Source of the DNA: a virus
Length of the DNA: 20,401 bases
Direction: 5' to 3' (one strand)
Virus record (IMG/VR): IMGVR_UViG_3300047379_000384
Span: 1-20,401 of that record
Numbering within the stretch: position 1 is the stretch's first letter; each line of letters begins with the position of its first letter. Shown one piece after another: positions 12 to 15,926 of this stretch. A model generated the notes under the pieces. The model saw only the letters and a program-made list of their open reading frames with translations, was not told the DNA's origin and searched no databases. The translations under genes were made by a program, and so were the position numbers.

Positions 12-46
12 TCAAAATGCACAACTTATTGATTATCAATGATTTA
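12..46 (-). promoter_or_regulatory. Box-1-type upstream element at window edge
   Basis: Read on the minus strand from 46, this begins with the stop codon of the adjacent gene and continues as TAAATCATTGATAATCAATA, ending in an ATTTTG stretch. It matches the distal box found upstream of three promoters at 13183, 15501 and 15926. The core ATTGATAATCAAT is a perfect palindrome. In those three cases a second box follows 57 nt later and a -35 element another 31 nt on, which here would fall outside the window. The role as a regulatory box is inferred from the repeats. Confidence 0.45.
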
Positions 47-2396: not shown

Positions 2397-3245
2397 TTAT
2401 TTGAAGTGGTTCTCTAATGAGTTGATTTGGGAATCTTTATATGCTTGATTCCAACGGATTGATCGCTTGCCGTAGTTACGAAAGCCTCCTGGCACCCTCT
2501 TACCATTTTCATCATACAGAATCTTGAAGTATTTAGGGTATAGTGATTGAATGAATTTGTGATCATTATGAACCCGGTCAAATGCAAGGTTGTCCCAGAT
2601 TGCGGATTCCTCTTTGGGGCTAGCAATACTTTGATTGCCAAACAAGAATTCTCCACTACGCCTAGTTTTATATCCGCGAGTGAGTAATCCTAATAGAAGT
2701 AAATCATCTTGTGCTGTACGAACTTTAGTAAGTTGCATATCATCTAGATCATCCGCAAAGTGTGTTCCATTGAACCAGTATGTATTACATACAGAACTAT
2801 TATCATTGTAATGTTTTGTATTTGGCGGTGTAGAGGATAAACCACACCCACACACAGTAAAACCTTCATCCAACCAATTCTGCATGACATCAAACATTTC
2901 TCTAACATCATCTTCATTACATTTTCTTGATGACTTCTCCATGTTAGAATTTCCAGTCCAATACTTTGCATTACGTCTAACAAAGAACATATCATCATCG
3001 AACATACAGTATTGCATATTCTTCCCTGCTTCGTAAATGAATCGGCGGGTGTTTGATAATGGATTCTTACTATCCAATGTAATTTCTTTAGGAAGAACCA
3101 AATACTCGGCATCGTATTCATACTGGTCTCTCTCCCATTCTTGAACTACAAATACTACCTTAGATTGTAACTCTTTTGGAAGACAGTTATAAGTGATCTG
3201 CCGATCTACTCGACATACAGTTGGTATGAATATTTTCTCAATCAT
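2397..3245 (-). CDS. GT-A-type glycosyltransferase-like protein
   Basis: This 282-residue protein has the layout of a small GT-A nucleotide-sugar transferase. The N-terminal strand IEKIFIPTVCRVDR (2-15) is followed by VVFVVQEWERDQY (30-42) and LVLPKE (49-54). A basic turn NTRRFIYEAG (65-74) then leads to QYCMFDDDMFFVRR (78-91), where DDD is the likely metal-binding motif. The middle has a Cys/Trp-rich segment and the C-terminus a basic NYGKRSIRWNQAYKD stretch. The order of blocks parallels the TAGT-like gene immediately downstream, so both may act in DNA or glycan modification. Its start is 2 nt after the polymerase stop. Its substrate cannot be read from sequence. Confidence 0.6.
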   Translation of the reverse strand: MIEKIFIPTVCRVDRQITYNCLPKELQSKVVFVVQEWERDQYEYDAEYLVLPKEITLDSKNPLSNTRRFIYEAGKNMQYCMFDDDMFFVRRNAKYWTGNSNMEKSSRKCNEDDVREMFDVMQNWLDEGFTVCGCGLSSTPPNTKHYNDNSSVCNTYWFNGTHFADDLDDMQLTKVRTAQDDLLLLGLLTRGYKTRRSGEFLFGNQSIASPKEESAIWDNLAFDRVHNDHKFIQSLYPKYFKILYDENGKRVPGGFRNYGKRSIRWNQAYKDSQINSLENHFK

Positions 3246-6428: not shown

Positions 6429-6881
6429 TTATTCAGATAGAAACTCTGGATCGGAAGACCCTTCACGAGTATTGTTTATCTTGAATGATTTTGGTTTCTT
6501 CTCTTCTGGAATATTCTTCTCAAGAAAAACTGAGAGAATACCATCAATGAGAGCAACCTCTTTCACTTCGATGTATTCACCGAGTGTGAAAGCTTTCTTG
6601 AACTTGCGTGTTGCGATGCCTTTATGAATATATTCTTTATCACCATTTAGATCAACATCCTTAGATGCGATGGTAAGAACATTTTCCTCTTGTTCAACGG
6701 TTAAATCTTTTTCGTTGAATCCAGCAACTGCGATAGCAATTTCAAATCGGTCATCATCATGCTTCACCACATTGTGGGGCGGATAACCAGATTGTTTTTC
6801 ATTTAATTTTTCGAGTCTATTAAACATAGAATCGAAACCGATAGTCCAGGTTTGACCTGGCCATGTATTTGTATTAGTCAT
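6429..6881 (-). CDS. hsp20: Small heat shock protein, Hsp20 family
   Basis: This 150-residue chaperone has the IbpA-like N-terminus (GFDSMFNRLEKL, 15-26) and YPPHNVVKHDDDRFEIAIAVAGF (33-55). The alpha-crystallin core ends with ALIDGILSVFLEK, the A-x-x-x-GxL motif. The C-terminal I-x-I-type anchor is replaced by PKSFKINN. Hsp20 proteins hold unfolding proteins; in T4-like cyanophages an hsp20 gene is common and has been linked to virion maturation or stress. Here it follows regA. It has a late promoter, an approximately 78-nt leader and a strong GGAGG 7 nt before the ATG, unlike most genes around it. Confidence 0.93.
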   Translation of the reverse strand: MTNTNTWPGQTWTIGFDSMFNRLEKLNEKQSGYPPHNVVKHDDDRFEIAIAVAGFNEKDLTVEQEENVLTIASKDVDLNGDKEYIHKGIATRKFKKAFTLGEYIEVKEVALIDGILSVFLEKNIPEEKKPKSFKINNTREGSSDPEFLSE

Positions 6882-11364: not shown

Positions 11365-11757
11365 CTATTTTGATTTATTTTCAATCATCTTTGCAGCGAT
11401 CTCATTAAATTCTTTCAGCCAACCATCTTCACTCGGCGGTGGGCGATCATCTACCCAATTATCTCTTATCATTGAATCACGAAGAACCGCAAGTCCGGTT
11501 ATAGCATGAGATATGTGATGAACACCAGAATCAGGGTCAATGTCTTCACCTTCATACCATGCGGCCAAATGTCGAATCGCGGCATCGTAATATACAGAGC
11601 CTCGAACTCCTGCTTCTCTCCAATTAAAGCGACCATATTTTAGGTCGCCGTGTAGTTTAACGAGTCCTGCTTCCATCAGAACATTCATGGGCATTCCACT
11701 CATGGGTGCCTTTTTGATTCCACAAGAATCTTTTGGGTTGGTTGGTTTTGTTTTCAT
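11365..11757 (-). CDS. dATP/dGTP diphosphohydrolase-like protein
   Basis: This 130-residue all-helical protein resembles the N-terminal dATP/dGTP diphosphohydrolase domain of phages (MazG-like). Visible motifs are NPKDSCGIKKAP (7-18), GLVKLHGDLKYGRFNWR (31-47) and AAIRHLAAWYEGEDIDPDSG (59-78), followed by HHISHAITGLAVLRD (80-94). Conserved Glu, Asp and His residues in these would bind metal and phosphates. Related enzymes cleave dNTPs to dNMP and pyrophosphate, changing the nucleotide pool. ATG 11757 is preferred: an upstream frame to 11838 would run through a hairpin. The substrate is inferred; no purZ-like gene is in the window. Confidence 0.7.
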   Translation of the reverse strand: MKTKPTNPKDSCGIKKAPMSGMPMNVLMEAGLVKLHGDLKYGRFNWREAGVRGSVYYDAAIRHLAAWYEGEDIDPDSGVHHISHAITGLAVLRDSMIRDNWVDDRPPPSEDGWLKEFNEIAAKMIENKSK

Positions 11758-11774
11758 ATAAAATTTGATATAGT

Positions 11775-11803
11775 GAGGTGGCACCCGTAATGGATGCCAC
11801 CTC
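11775..11803 (-). terminator. Hairpin after the CobS-like gene
   Basis: A perfect 9-bp stem (GAGGTGGCA with TGCCACCTC) has an 11-nt loop and lies 44 nt after the CobS-like stop. It lacks a clean U-run, so it may be an attenuator or processing site instead of a full terminator. Confidence 0.5.
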
Positions 11804-11846
11804 GATTGATTATGAATTACTGTCGTATCCCTCGACAATAAAGTTT

Positions 11847-13049
11847 TTATGGCATGTCGATCTTGGGGTCGTATCCACCGTTTTCAACGGTCTCGCCCTC
11901 TTGGATAAATTCCTCAAGATTAGCAGATTCATCGATCTTCGTGTAGAGGTCAAGGAAAGCATCCTTGGTCTCGGAGTCGAAACGGTTGATGCACATCTCA
12001 ATCGATTTCATGCGATTGGCGAAAATGGAATGGCTCTTCACGATGTGGCAGAGACGGCGAGTAGAAATCACTTCGTCCACTGCTTCGTCTTCGAATGTTT
12101 TACGAATCACATTTGACCAGGCAACAAGCTTGTCGATGAATTCGAGATCGCTCACCTCATATTTTTCGGCATGCTTGACCAAAATCTTTTTCTCAATGCG
12201 AGCCGCAGGGTATTCCTGTTCGATTGTGGCTACGAAACGTTCTAGGAAGGCATCGTCAATGATTGAAGCCGCGGTATATCGACCGTCATCAGAACCACGA
12301 CCTTTAGTATTTGCGGTGGCAATAACCGTGAAGCCGCGGGCTGGAGTAATGACCTCTCCTGTCTTTTTTAAGAGAACAGGATTGCCCTCAAGAACCCCTT
12401 GGAGGCACATGATTTTATTGGTTGAACGGTCAATCTCGTCAACCAGTAGAACTGCTCCACGTTCCATAGCCTTGACTACGGGTCCCTTTTGGTAGATTGT
12501 CTCGCCATTAATGAGTCGAAAGCCACCGATAAGATCGTCCTCGTCAGTCTCAGGCGAAATCTGAACCCGGATATATTCTCGCTTGGCTTTCGCACAGGCT
12601 TGTTCGACCATGAATGTTTTACCATTGCCAGACATGCCCTCAATATATAATGGGTAGAAAATGCCAGCGGCAAGAATATCAGCCACGGTTTTGAATTCAC
12701 CCCACTTGACATATGTGGAATCAACTGTTGGAATGTGAATTTCATCGTCCACAACCGAGGCAACTGTGGTCGCCAGTTTGAAATTCTCAGCAGGAGTTCG
12801 AACCGCGGGGGTCGAAACAGGGGTGTCGGCGGTAAGGAATTCACCAGTTACCTCCGAAACAGGAAATGTGTAATAACCTCGTTTCGAGGCTTTGGAGAAC
12901 ATCGTGCGCACGGTCTTGTGCACGAGAGAACGGTCGAGACCGAGGCTCTCGGCGACATCAATGATTGCGGCTTTCTTAACCGGGGCTTTAGTAAGGTCCA
13001 TCGCTTGGTGGATGGAGGCGATATTTTCGTTTGTTAGTGTATTTTTCAT
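11847..13049 (-). CDS. cobS: CobS-like (MoxR-type) AAA+ ATPase
   Basis: This 400-residue ATPase has an N-terminal helical region (1-100) with a helix-turn-helix look (IIDVAESLGLDRSLVHKTV, 29-47). The AAA+ domain follows: Walker A GMSGNGKT (138-145), Walker B VLLVDEID (200-207), sensor 1 IATANT (243-248) and DDAFLERF (265-272) with the likely arginine finger. Cobaltochelatase CobS and MoxR ATPases share this layout, and T4-like cyanophages carry a homologue. No cobalamin genes are present, so a MoxR-type remodelling role is as likely as metal insertion. ATG 13049 is preferred over TTG 13055. It pairs with the VWA protein upstream, and their promoters are near-copies. Confidence 0.88.
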   Translation of the reverse strand: MKNTLTNENIASIHQAMDLTKAPVKKAAIIDVAESLGLDRSLVHKTVRTMFSKASKRGYYTFPVSEVTGEFLTADTPVSTPAVRTPAENFKLATTVASVVDDEIHIPTVDSTYVKWGEFKTVADILAAGIFYPLYIEGMSGNGKTFMVEQACAKAKREYIRVQISPETDEDDLIGGFRLINGETIYQKGPVVKAMERGAVLLVDEIDRSTNKIMCLQGVLEGNPVLLKKTGEVITPARGFTVIATANTKGRGSDDGRYTAASIIDDAFLERFVATIEQEYPAARIEKKILVKHAEKYEVSDLEFIDKLVAWSNVIRKTFEDEAVDEVISTRRLCHIVKSHSIFANRMKSIEMCINRFDSETKDAFLDLYTKIDESANLEEFIQEGETVENGGYDPKIDMP

Positions 13050-13183
13050 AATCAATCTTATATGTATATTATATCAGGTTTTGAGGATTTGTACAGGATT
13101 TTAAATCTTTGATCATCAAATAGTTACAAAACTGTTTCGAACTTTTAACAAAAGTTGATAAGTCGTTAATATTCAATGAGTTA
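13050..13183 (-). promoter_or_regulatory. Tandem-box promoter of the CobS-like gene
   Basis: Box 1 starts at 13183 (TAACTCATTGAATATTAACG) and box 2 at 13126 (TAACTATTTGATGATC). The -35 TGTACA is at 13090-13095 and the -10 TATAAT at 13068-13073 (16 bp). The ATG lies 18 nt further on. The arrangement aligns without gaps over 137 nt with the region before the CobT-like gene; the last 38 nt differ by one base. Confidence 0.7.
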
Positions 13184-13204
13184 CTCATCCAGTTCACTTT
13201 GGGT

Positions 13205-15367
13205 TTAGGCAATCTTTTCAGCCAGACTAGTTAGGAGAATTCGTGTTTGGCGAGCCTTTTGGTTATGGGCGCCGAACTGTTTAGCGAGTCTGTTCTGAGC
13301 CTTGCGAGAGTTGGCTGCGTCTTCTTGAATGCTTGTTACAAAATCATTATCGGTAATTCCGACATCTGAATCTAAGATGTAATAGGCACCATAGCCGCGG
13401 TTCTCCACACTTGAGAAGCCATTCTTGGCATGTAATTTTCTGGCTTTTTTAACATCGGTGGTGGTGCGATGAAAACGATTTAGAAGTCGGTTGAGTTCTT
13501 TCTTGTGGTTTGGAAGAAAGAAACCGATAGTAGATATGCCAGGTAAATCACTAATCATTTCCATCAAGCTATTAGTTGATCTATAACGTGGAATGTCATG
13601 AATCTTGCCGCCAGATTTGATTTTCAATCTTCCACTAAGCATTTCGTCCCAGCCGTGATTCGTAGAGATACCTGCACTGTCACCATCTGTTAGGGTAACA
13701 AAAGTGGTTTTTTGAATTCCAGTCTTCTTTACAAAATCAGTCAAGATGGTTGGCATCATGGTCAATACGGTATCTAATGGTGTGCCTCCAAGTGAATCAT
13801 ATTGTCCGCCCTGCCAATGAGTGTTCCGTGTCGCCCAAAGGGCTTGGAAAGCCTCTTCATATGTTGTCTTTTTCATCTCGCTGGTGATGTGTTCAACCAG
13901 AACCACATTGGATAGATCGACCTCATTGAAAGTAGGATCAATGGTGCATTTTGAATTCGTTACATATGTGTTAGTAAAAGAATAAACCCGAAAAGGAATT
14001 CCGACCTTCTTACAAAAGGTAACCAAGTTGAGAGTCTGGTCAATGACATCTTTAAGAACTCTAGCCATTGAACCAGAATAATCCAATAGGAAAATCATTC
14101 CGTGCGATTTCGAATCAGCAAGTTTGGTTTGCGAGAGGAAAATTTCATCGGTCAACTTGTAATTGTGTAACTTGTTCACATCCAATTTACCGGTACGACT
14201 TTCGGTAGCACGAGAGTATTGGAAAGCCGCTTTGCGTTGTTCGAATTCACGAACCAGAGTTCCAACCTTCTTGTTAGTAATCTTACGGAAATTGATGAAT
14301 TTATCGTTTATATCTTGTGAGACATTTGAATCACATCCTGCGAGCCATCCTAAAAAACTGCCACGATTTTTACGCAACATATCATAGTCAACAATTGAAT
14401 CATAAATATAATTTGGTCGAGGAAGCATGACTGGTGTGTATTTTCTCTCGGTCATGCTCTCAACGGTTTCGCCTAGATTGTCTTCGAAATCTTTGATAGT
14501 GTCAGCAACGAATTCTTTAGGTATATCGTCACTTGCACCACTATTAGAATCTGAGGCAGAAGTTTCGGTCTCATCATTTTCTGTTTCAGAACCAATATCG
14601 GAGCTGGATACATCGGCATCAGGCATGCCTTCATCGCCATCATCTGTTTCTTCGCCATCTTCGGCTTCAGAACCATCGTCGGTTTCTGATTCATTAGAGT
14701 CATCACCATCAGTTTGGTTATTCTCATCTTCGTTTTGATCAGAAGGTAAAGGGTCAACATCTTCGGCTTCTTCAGAAGAATCTTCGCTCTCGCTTTGGTC
14801 TTGTGGTGACTCTGGCTCTTTTTCAATCATATCTTTAATCTCTAGGCAAATGTCTAGAACATCGTCGAAAGTTTGAGCCTTGAGGCACTTTTGATAGATC
14901 ACCTCTTCATCGGCGTCCAAAGGAATATCTAAAAGAGAACCAACTTTGCCTCGCAAATTAAGGCGGTCAAGAAAGCCACATTCGGGTATGTTCTTTTCCT
15001 TGGTTCCGAAAAAGTCGTCCTCAACCAACTCAGAGTAAGCCTTTCGAAATACTCGAGGCAAGCCAGGATAAGTGTCTTGAATCATTCGTTCAATTCGAAT
15101 ATCTTCAACGATGTTACAAACATCAAATGGAATGTCTCCGCACTTGGAACGAAATTCTTCAATTCCTTTTTCTGGTGTGTAAAGGGCATGACCAACTTCG
15201 TGTCCGACCAACATATCGTAAACATCCTTGCTTTTATTTTTCCACATGGGCAAACCAAGGACACGATTTTTAACATCAAACATTGCGGTCTTCATGTTGC
15301 CGTGAGTGACGACAATGTTCTCTTTGGCGAGAAGTCTCGCGAGGGTGGATTGGAGTTCGTAATTCAT
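13205..15367 (-). CDS. cobT: CobT-like protein with metallopeptidase and VWA domains
   Basis: This 720-residue protein has three parts. Residues 45-110 hold a zincin motif, VGHEVGHAL (HEVGH 56-60), and NIVEDIRIERM (85-95), whose Glu could be the third zinc ligand. Residues about 183-280 are an acidic Asp/Glu/Ser linker. Residues 415-620 form a von Willebrand A domain with MIDAS motif DYSGS (429-433), GGTPL (527-531) and TLTDGD (558-563). CobT and other VWA partners of MoxR ATPases share the linker-VWA layout. The intact HEXXH makes a protease or a disabled metal-binding fold possible. It lies directly before the CobS-like gene. Promoter and boxes precede it, without a Shine-Dalgarno. Confidence 0.85.
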   Translation of the reverse strand: MNYELQSTLARLLAKENIVVTHGNMKTAMFDVKNRVLGLPMWKNKSKDVYDMLVGHEVGHALYTPEKGIEEFRSKCGDIPFDVCNIVEDIRIERMIQDTYPGLPRVFRKAYSELVEDDFFGTKEKNIPECGFLDRLNLRGKVGSLLDIPLDADEEVIYQKCLKAQTFDDVLDICLEIKDMIEKEPESPQDQSESEDSSEEAEDVDPLPSDQNEDENNQTDGDDSNESETDDGSEAEDGEETDDGDEGMPDADVSSSDIGSETENDETETSASDSNSGASDDIPKEFVADTIKDFEDNLGETVESMTERKYTPVMLPRPNYIYDSIVDYDMLRKNRGSFLGWLAGCDSNVSQDINDKFINFRKITNKKVGTLVREFEQRKAAFQYSRATESRTGKLDVNKLHNYKLTDEIFLSQTKLADSKSHGMIFLLDYSGSMARVLKDVIDQTLNLVTFCKKVGIPFRVYSFTNTYVTNSKCTIDPTFNEVDLSNVVLVEHITSEMKKTTYEEAFQALWATRNTHWQGGQYDSLGGTPLDTVLTMMPTILTDFVKKTGIQKTTFVTLTDGDSAGISTNHGWDEMLSGRLKIKSGGKIHDIPRYRSTNSLMEMISDLPGISTIGFFLPNHKKELNRLLNRFHRTTTDVKKARKLHAKNGFSSVENRGYGAYYILDSDVGITDNDFVTSIQEDAANSRKAQNRLAKQFGAHNQKARQTRILLTSLAEKIA

Positions 15368-15501
15368 AATTAATCTTATATGTATATTATATCAGGTTTT
15401 GACAATTTGTAAAGGCTTTTATGTCTCTGACCATCAATGAGTTATGACTCGTGTAGTTGATCATCCGCAAAATTGATAAGTGGTTGATAGTCAACATATT
15501 A
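15368..15501 (-). promoter_or_regulatory. Tandem-box promoter of the CobT-like gene
   Basis: Box 1 starts at 15501, on the stop codon of the gene before. Box 2 (TAACTCATTGATGGTCAGAG) starts at 15444. The -35 TTTACA is at 15408-15413 and the -10 TATAAT at 15386-15391 (16 bp), with 18 nt to the ATG. Box spacings are the same as before the CobS-like gene. Confidence 0.75.
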
Positions 15502-15801
15502 AAAATCATTGAGTGATGGATTTAACTCTGCGATGAGTTCTCTCTCGCGCTGGTAAGCAGCTTTGCGACCTCGGACAACTTCAAGAACCTCATAGTAGAT
15601 GGTCTCGTTTGTCTCACGGATAAATTTGCACATCGTCCAGTCCTTGTTTTCCTTCAAGGCACGGGAGATATGTTTCTGAACCCGAATCTTTACAGATTTC
15701 CAAAATGCTCGACCTTGAGAAACCGTAAGTCCGATATATTCATCGTCACCACCGCTCACACGGTAAAGAACGTAGTTTCTATCTTTTCTTTTCTTTCTCA
15801 T
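15499..15801 (-). CDS. Small GIY-YIG-like protein
   Basis: This 100-residue protein covers one compact GIY-YIG-like fold. NYVLYRVSGGDDEYIGLTV (9-27) carries degenerate forms of the two YIG strands. Other residues are R40 in VKIRVQKH, E71 in YYEVLEVV, and the final RERELIAELNPSLND (85-99), whose Glu and Asn match the family's C-terminal motif. The basic N-terminus (MRKKRKDR) could bind nucleic acid. It might be an active nuclease or a binding protein that lost activity, since the first tyrosines are partly replaced. It has its own tandem-box promoter, 8 nt from -10 to ATG. Confidence 0.65.
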   Translation of the reverse strand: MRKKRKDRNYVLYRVSGGDDEYIGLTVSQGRAFWKSVKIRVQKHISRALKENKDWTMCKFIRETNETIYYEVLEVVRGRKAAYQRERELIAELNPSLNDF

Positions 15802-15926
15802 ATAGGTATATTATATACCATAAATGCCATTTTGTAAATGGTTTTAACCCATTGAATATCAATGAGTTACAAAAGAAAATTTAAAAGAAACCAAAAGTTT
15901 ACTAGTTATTCACTATCAATGACTTA
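15802..15926 (-). promoter_or_regulatory. Tandem-box promoter of the small GIY-YIG-like gene
   Basis: Box 1 starts at 15926, inside the last codons of the upstream gene. Box 2 (TAACTCATTGATATTCAATG) starts at 15869. The -35 TTTACA is at 15833-15838 and the -10 TATAAT at 15810-15815 (17 bp). Box spacings (57 and 31) equal those of the other two copies. Confidence 0.7.

Follow-up and report, generated by a model that had tools for sequence, protein, structure and literature searches.

Paired palindromic boxes at fixed distances from sigma70-type promoters in an uncultured T4-like phage and its relatives

Repressors typically act through paired palindromic operators; those of phages, for example lambda and P22, consist of multiple short palindromes at a promoter. 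Next to nothing is known about how the uncultured majority of T4-like aquatic phages controls transcription. In T4 itself, the MotA box is centered at -30 and replaces the -35 element (PMC2988021), and UP elements are sites of alpha-CTD contact (PMC2988021). In cluster K mycobacteriophages, the ESAS elements are imperfect inverted repeats that precede a subset of genes, are conserved in relatives, and have an unknown function (PMC3203893). They comprise 17-bp repeats with a variable spacer of 4 to 13 bp and are coupled to a 13-bp start-associated sequence, GGGATAGGAGCCC (PMC3203893).

The window analyzed here, a 20.4-kb fragment (20,401 nucleotides) of an uncultured marine T4-like phage, carries replication genes of the T4 type. 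The DNA polymerase encoded by it was less than 60% identical to that of every phage on record, with 44% identity to the best listed match. The following genes and promoters on its minus strand are those associated with the element described below.

11847..13049, minus strand: CobS-like AAA+ ATPase gene (cobS); Pfam AAA_5, 1.5e-19; named "CobS" in cyanophage records
13068..13095, minus strand: sigma70-type promoter of cobS; TGTACA, 16 nt, TATAAT with TGn
13205..15367, minus strand: CobT-like gene (cobT); full-length tblastn matches to cyanophage "peptidase," 31-32% identity
15386..15413, minus strand: sigma70-type promoter of cobT; TTTACA, 16 nt, TATAAT with TGn
15499..15801, minus strand: 100-aa ORF (giy), predicted GIY-YIG nuclease fold (AlphaFold, PDB structure match)
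15810..15838, minus strand: sigma70-type promoter of the 100-aa ORF; TTTACA, 17 nt, TATAAT

The label CobT was given in the initial annotation; a Pfam search with the gene product gave no match. Pfam likewise returned no match for the 100-aa ORF, and its AlphaFold model (pLDDT 90) had the I-TevI catalytic domain as the top PDB match, with a probability of 0.99 and an E value of 0.09. Because of this predicted fold, the ORF is possibly a mobile gene. All three promoters have -35 and -10 elements, with the first base of the -35 at 13095 (TGTACA), 15413 (TTTACA), and 15838 (TTTACA); TGn is present in those of cobS and cobT and absent from that of the 100-aa ORF.

Several window promoters without boxes (11362-11324, 10360-10324, 5873-5836, and 2394-2357) have the -10 element a few bases before the ATG, e.g., TATAGTTATATACAATG, and the same was observed in contig L283 (TATACTactcccATG). 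This proximity suggests that these promoters and that of L283 may give leaderless transcripts. Elsewhere in the window, two proteins (1418-2359 and 2397-3245) matched the Pfam family TAGT (TET-associated glycosyltransferase) at 4e-43 and 2e-9, hinting at hypermodified DNA, and 11365-11838 and 6429-6881 gave matches to the dATP/dGTP diphosphohydrolase N-terminal domain (PF18909) and HSP20.

Upstream of the three promoters, the initial annotation had reported a box with variable bases in two copies at constant distances. All six boxes were recovered, with every position exact on recheck: on the minus strand, those starting at 13183, 15501, and 15926 read TAACTCATTGAA, TAATATGTTGAC, and TAAGTCATTGAT, the one starting at 13126 reads TAACTATTTGAT, and those starting at 15444 and 15869 both read TAACTCATTGAT. 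The reported 57 bp between paired boxes held for all three pairs, as did the 31 bp from the start of the second box to the start of the -35 at all three promoters. Taken as the 12-mer originally proposed, however, the box was barely above chance (61 matches with up to 3 mismatches versus 47 expected, 61 being reached in 3 of 100 shuffles), and the full palindrome was required for a clear signal. The palindromy, described at first as partial around TTGA...TCAA, was found to span the whole box, which is a 25-bp imperfect palindrome (TAASTCNTTGANNNTCAANGASTTA) composed of two 11-bp half-sites, TAASTCRTTGA, and a 3-bp center. A seventh copy, at 22-46 on the minus strand, marks a fourth pair. Sites were scored over the 20 defined positions of the 25-bp motif, and the distal and proximal palindromes were designated P1 and P2.

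13159..13183, minus strand: P1 before cobS, TAACTCATTGAATATTAACGACTTA; score 19/20; P2 57 bp away
13102..13126, minus strand: P2 before cobS, TAACTATTTGATGATCAAAGATTTA; score 18/20; -35 begins 31 bp after its start
15477..15501, minus strand: P1 before cobT, TAATATGTTGACTATCAACCACTTA; score 16/20; its TAA doubles as the stop codon of the preceding ORF
15420..15444, minus strand: P2 before cobT, TAACTCATTGATGGTCAGAGACATA; score 18/20; P1 at 57 bp, -35 at 31 bp
15902..15926, minus strand: P1 before the 100-aa ORF, TAAGTCATTGATAGTGAATAACTAG; score 16/20
15845..15869, minus strand: P2 before the 100-aa ORF, TAACTCATTGATATTCAATGGGTTA; score 19/20
22..46, minus strand: P1 of the fourth pair, TAAATCATTGATAATCAATAAGTTG; score 17/20; P2 lies past the left edge of the window

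Seven window sites scored at least 16/20, compared with 0.05 on average when the window was simulated 200 times under a first-order Markov model, a figure that is somewhat flattering because the motif and threshold were fixed after the boxes had been seen; no 57-bp pair occurred in any of the 200 simulations of the window. The evidence from relatives is independent of this figure. In one relative, G001, the fourth pair has a counterpart in which both boxes and a promoter are present.

A gapless alignment of the regions upstream of cobS and cobT was confirmed over 137 nt, of which 99 are identical. Identity was uneven, at 18/25 in P1, 12/32 in the spacer, 19/25 in P2, and 45/49 from the -35 to the ATG, and the poorly matched spacer nevertheless contained no indel. 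The same pattern was observed in an alignment of 35 promoters, where information per column was 1.21 for P1 and 1.23 for P2 versus 0.68 for the spacer. In this alignment, each box had a longer inner than outer arm (P1 ...TATCAATGACTTATGAATTTT, P2 TTTC.TAACTC.TTGATA...), and the pair itself is therefore an inverted repeat.

Relatives were collected through CobS. In G001, a 48.6-kb contig of L002, a scan with the motif alone at a score of at least 15 returned ten sites, which made up exactly five pairs, all spaced 57 bp, all on one strand, and all with a -35/-10 promoter 31 bp after the P2 start. These promoters serve cobS, cobT, giy, a 172-aa ORF, and a 59-aa ORF that precedes a GNAT-type ORF. 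For the 172-aa ORF, a Pfam search gave no match and the structure model was uninformative (pLDDT 40). Five further promoters with identical geometry, plus some extra box copies, were found in L387, and a spacing of 58 bp was seen for two of the three pairs in both L017 and L019. P1 often begins on the stop codon of the preceding gene, and boxes were also found where no GIY-YIG-like ORF adjoins. Reversed-pattern controls gave no matches in 24 records, 17 of which contain the motif itself.

The 39 collected promoters were chosen for a -35 at 31 bp and are for that reason no test of this distance, which was tested instead by the motif scans of G001 and L387, by comparison with control promoters, and by a shifted-spacing scan of IMG/VR. 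For cobS, cobT, and giy in relatives, the best site mostly preceded the -35 by 31 or 88 (31 + 57) bp, and the promoters of genes 43, 44, 45, 46, and 47 in relatives showed no peak at 31 or 88 bp. Across IMG/VR, TTGATANTCAA-N13-TKTACAAA gave 29 distinct readable matches, with the full palindrome and a -10 in 22 and with P1 in 20. When the spacing was shifted, the full palindrome and a -10 occurred together in 0/35 matches for N8 (-5) and 0/14 for N18 (+5). A weaker -35 at the boxed window promoters was considered as a sign of activation; this argument was dropped because some control promoters in relatives likewise have TTTACA/TGTACA. In another phage lineage (L456, L464, and L467), two palindromes about 27 bp apart precede TTTTACAAAAAAAGTG, without a -10.

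Distant relatives (about 60% CobS identity) appear to keep the proximal box only; in L010, for example, the alignment reads as a P2-like sequence 31 bp before the -35, with P1 absent. The mean P2 score was 9.3 in the more distant relatives versus about 5.5 at control promoters, and some relatives were without any motif match. Since a P2-like sequence persists at 31 bp where P1 is gone, P2 probably matters more than P1. Boxes at random positions, or promoters kept without boxes, had been named beforehand as arguing against a binding site. Neither was found in near relatives; distant ones appear to keep P2 only, and some gave no match. Phage C48C1, the closest by DNA polymerase, had no box in its first 50 kb, and short-query searches of named phages gave weak, scattered matches only.

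Fixed spacing across diverged copies had been put forward as an argument for a protein-binding site. The spacing is indeed exact, but the three promoter copies undergo concerted evolution within each genome and so are not independent witnesses. When 46 nt starting at P2 were compared, the cobT and cobS promoters of L005 were identical at 42/46 positions, compared with 36-38/46 against their L004 orthologues. The -35 was also uniform per genome, being TGTACA at all three promoters in G001 and L004 and TTTACA in L005. Either gene conversion or coevolution with a trans-acting factor would suffice to produce this likeness, and gene conversion could do so without regulation.

A palindrome scan of IMG/VR returned many contigs that hold pairs, even though pairing was not searched for. 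Among the matches listed, spacings peaked at 50 bp (at least 90 pairs), followed by 58 and 41 bp, counts that are not independent because some records overlap or are related. Among the same matches, spacing was usually uniform within a contig, spacers were GC-rich (mean, 81% GC), and the nearest promoter-like sequence was not at a fixed 31 bp; the mechanism may therefore not carry over. By mechanical gene calling, at least 114 pairs with clear neighbors lay between tandem genes, at least 16 between divergent genes, and at least 12 between convergent genes, with at least 6 inside ORFs. Recurring regulator genes were not found behind the pairs, small hypotheticals and DUF932 proteins being observed instead. 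Many pairs lay between small genes in L373, L375, L369, L319, L283, L314, L364, L365, and others, with near-constant spacing per contig (58, 41, 42, 50-51, 50 bp, and others) and mostly GC-rich spacers. In L364, L373, L389, and others, TTGAC was located about 39 nt (36-41) outside the palindrome and facing it; in tandem-gene context, it occurred beyond P2 (at least 37) more than before P1 (at least 13) among the matches listed. The wide occurrence of such pairs in other uncultured phages had escaped the initial annotation. We tentatively consider that promoters in several separate lineages of uncultured aquatic phages may be controlled by a single unrecognized system, built on a conserved binder and pairs of 25-bp palindromes, with each lineage having its own spacing (41-42, 48, 50, 52-53, or 57-58 bp).

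The motif was rejected as a general bacterial element, the inspected genome matches being mostly terminator-like hairpins near tRNAs or a dispersed Microscillaceae repeat. The hairpins (L161, L183, L206, L208, L210, and L221) have the form TAAnnC-TTGA...TCAA-GnnTTA, stand shortly after tRNA-like sequence, are followed in several cases by T-runs, and are probably terminators whose resemblance to the motif is fortuitous. The repeat, in a Microscillaceae MAG (L160, L190, L197, L224, and L265), is MITE-like with ends CAGCAATTCCCACTWTGG and encloses two to three similar palindromes, with spacings of 50 and 44. An operator of the FNR/CRP type, TTGAT-N4-ATCAA, was also rejected, with 0/26 clade sites and 0/424 other sites among the matches listed.

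The promoter-associated element is real, conserved, and geometrically strict. With moderate confidence, P1 and P2 are interpreted as paired operators of a putative, probably dimeric, sequence-specific DNA-binding protein regulating a small sigma70-type regulon, which in this uncultured T4-like clade would include cobS, cobT, the GIY-YIG-like ORF, and at least two more genes. If the -10 is taken to end at -7, P2 extends from about -65 to -41, with its center near -53, and ends about 6 bp before an intact -35, while P1 is centered near -110. The core promoter is left free by both, which suggests activation or bending over occlusion; activation by the putative regulator is thus more likely than repression, position being the sole evidence for the sign of regulation. 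Most simply, protein bound at P2 would recruit RNA polymerase via the alpha C-terminal domain or sigma region 4, and P1 would allow cooperative binding or bend the DNA. The binder would probably be phage encoded. The box sequence, the pairing, the fixed spacing, the link to promoters, the conservation, and the lack of arm covariation are shown directly; protein binding itself, the dimeric state and phage origin of the binder, activation over repression, and the timing of expression are points that we infer. The 57-bp spacing corresponds to about 5.4 turns of the helix, and the spacings common elsewhere, 41, 50, and 58 bp, share no helical phase, a poor fit to simple side-by-side contact of two dimers.

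A repressor that binds P2 and P1 cooperatively, forming a loop of about 57 bp and shutting the genes off at some infection stage, is possible but doubtful. Such paired palindromes are typical repressor sites, and the TTGAC that often faces the box from about 39 nt outside it in other phages would put the box near a start site; in the present clade, however, the boxes lie upstream of otherwise complete promoters, with the core uncovered by P2, which stops about 6 bp short of the -35, and with P1 as far away as -110. It is unlikely that a host protein (IHF, HU, or a host regulator) uses the boxes, e.g., IHF bending the upstream DNA, the phage thereby exploiting host regulation. Although one arm or both fit the IHF core WATCARNNNNTTR in 10/13 P1, 8/13 P2, and, among the matches listed, 278/424 other-phage sites, the core is found on one arm in 18/26 clade sites while the conserved unit is the symmetric 25-bp palindrome, both arms of which are conserved without being needed by IHF. 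Many other-phage sites read ACTCAA and fail the IHF core, and the bacterial genome matches, mostly tRNA-proximal hairpins or the Microscillaceae repeat, speak against a host regulator. About equally unlikely is that recombination copied a P1-P2-promoter unit from gene to gene, perhaps together with the GIY-YIG ORF, which would make the likeness a matter of descent and gene conversion rather than of a regulatory site. Homogenization of P2 and the -35 within genomes, the frequent start of P1 on the previous stop codon, the position of the GIY-YIG-fold ORF between two pairs, and the clustering of pairs in one stretch of large phage contigs all agree with such copying. Yet boxes and spacing persist while the spacer is randomized, pairs also stand at genes without a GIY-YIG neighbor, and the distance to the -35 was specific in the collection-wide scan.

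Folding of the palindromes into RNA or cruciform hairpins, as terminators of the upstream gene or a processing signal, is very improbable. P1 does directly follow the upstream stop codon, and GC-rich inverted repeats occur in the spacer of some other phages, but the box arms do not covary, spacer stems are scarcely above shuffles (4.5 versus 4.0 bp), and terminators would not be expected at a fixed distance from the next promoter. Relative to column shuffles for 28 promoters, pairing gave z values of -1.9 within P1, -1.5 within P2, and 0.8 between P1 and P2, and the half-site letters in other phages vary nearly independently. A structured RNA element was rejected, as an Rfam search for structured RNA gave no match and compensatory stem changes did not exceed the column shuffles. 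The lack of arm covariation, together with spacing that is kept while spacer sequence is lost, therefore favors double-stranded DNA-protein recognition, and the boxes are best read as a DNA-protein site rather than a hairpin. The protein-binding proposal of the initial annotation is partly supported, by the conserved pairs, the fixed spacing, the link to sigma70-type promoters, retention in relatives, and the absence of hairpin covariation.

A promoter signature of strict geometry that can be scanned for makes a regulon definable and its member genes predictable from sequence alone, and the 140-bp region offers a concrete bait in the search for a regulator. The wide spread of palindrome pairs suggests a common control element overlooked by gene-centered annotation. 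As far as the literature found extends (mostly freely accessible papers), the element appears to match none described. As in the paired operators of lambda and P22, multiple palindromic sites are present at a promoter; unlike there, the sites are 25 bp long and lie entirely outside the core promoter, on its upstream side, and no gene for a repressor was identified. With the cluster K ESAS, the element shares conserved imperfect inverted repeats before some phage genes, but no fixed relation to a -35 is described for ESAS. The layout of 25-bp palindromes, 57 bp center to center, differs from that description, and membership in ESAS was rejected (PMC3203893). The T4 early promoters (UP/-35/TGn/-10) are similar in their -35/-10 hexamers, in TGn, present here in several promoters, and in AT-rich upstream DNA, whereas UP elements are not sequence-specific paired palindromes at fixed spacing (PMC2988021). 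The T4 middle promoters (MotA box plus AsiA) likewise form a sigma70 promoter class of a T4-type phage marked by an extra upstream box. The box described here was rightly distinguished from a MotA box, since a -35 hexamer is present at every site and the boxes lie near -53 and -110: where the middle promoters have a MotA box at -30 replacing the -35, these promoters combine a -35 with two 25-bp palindromes.
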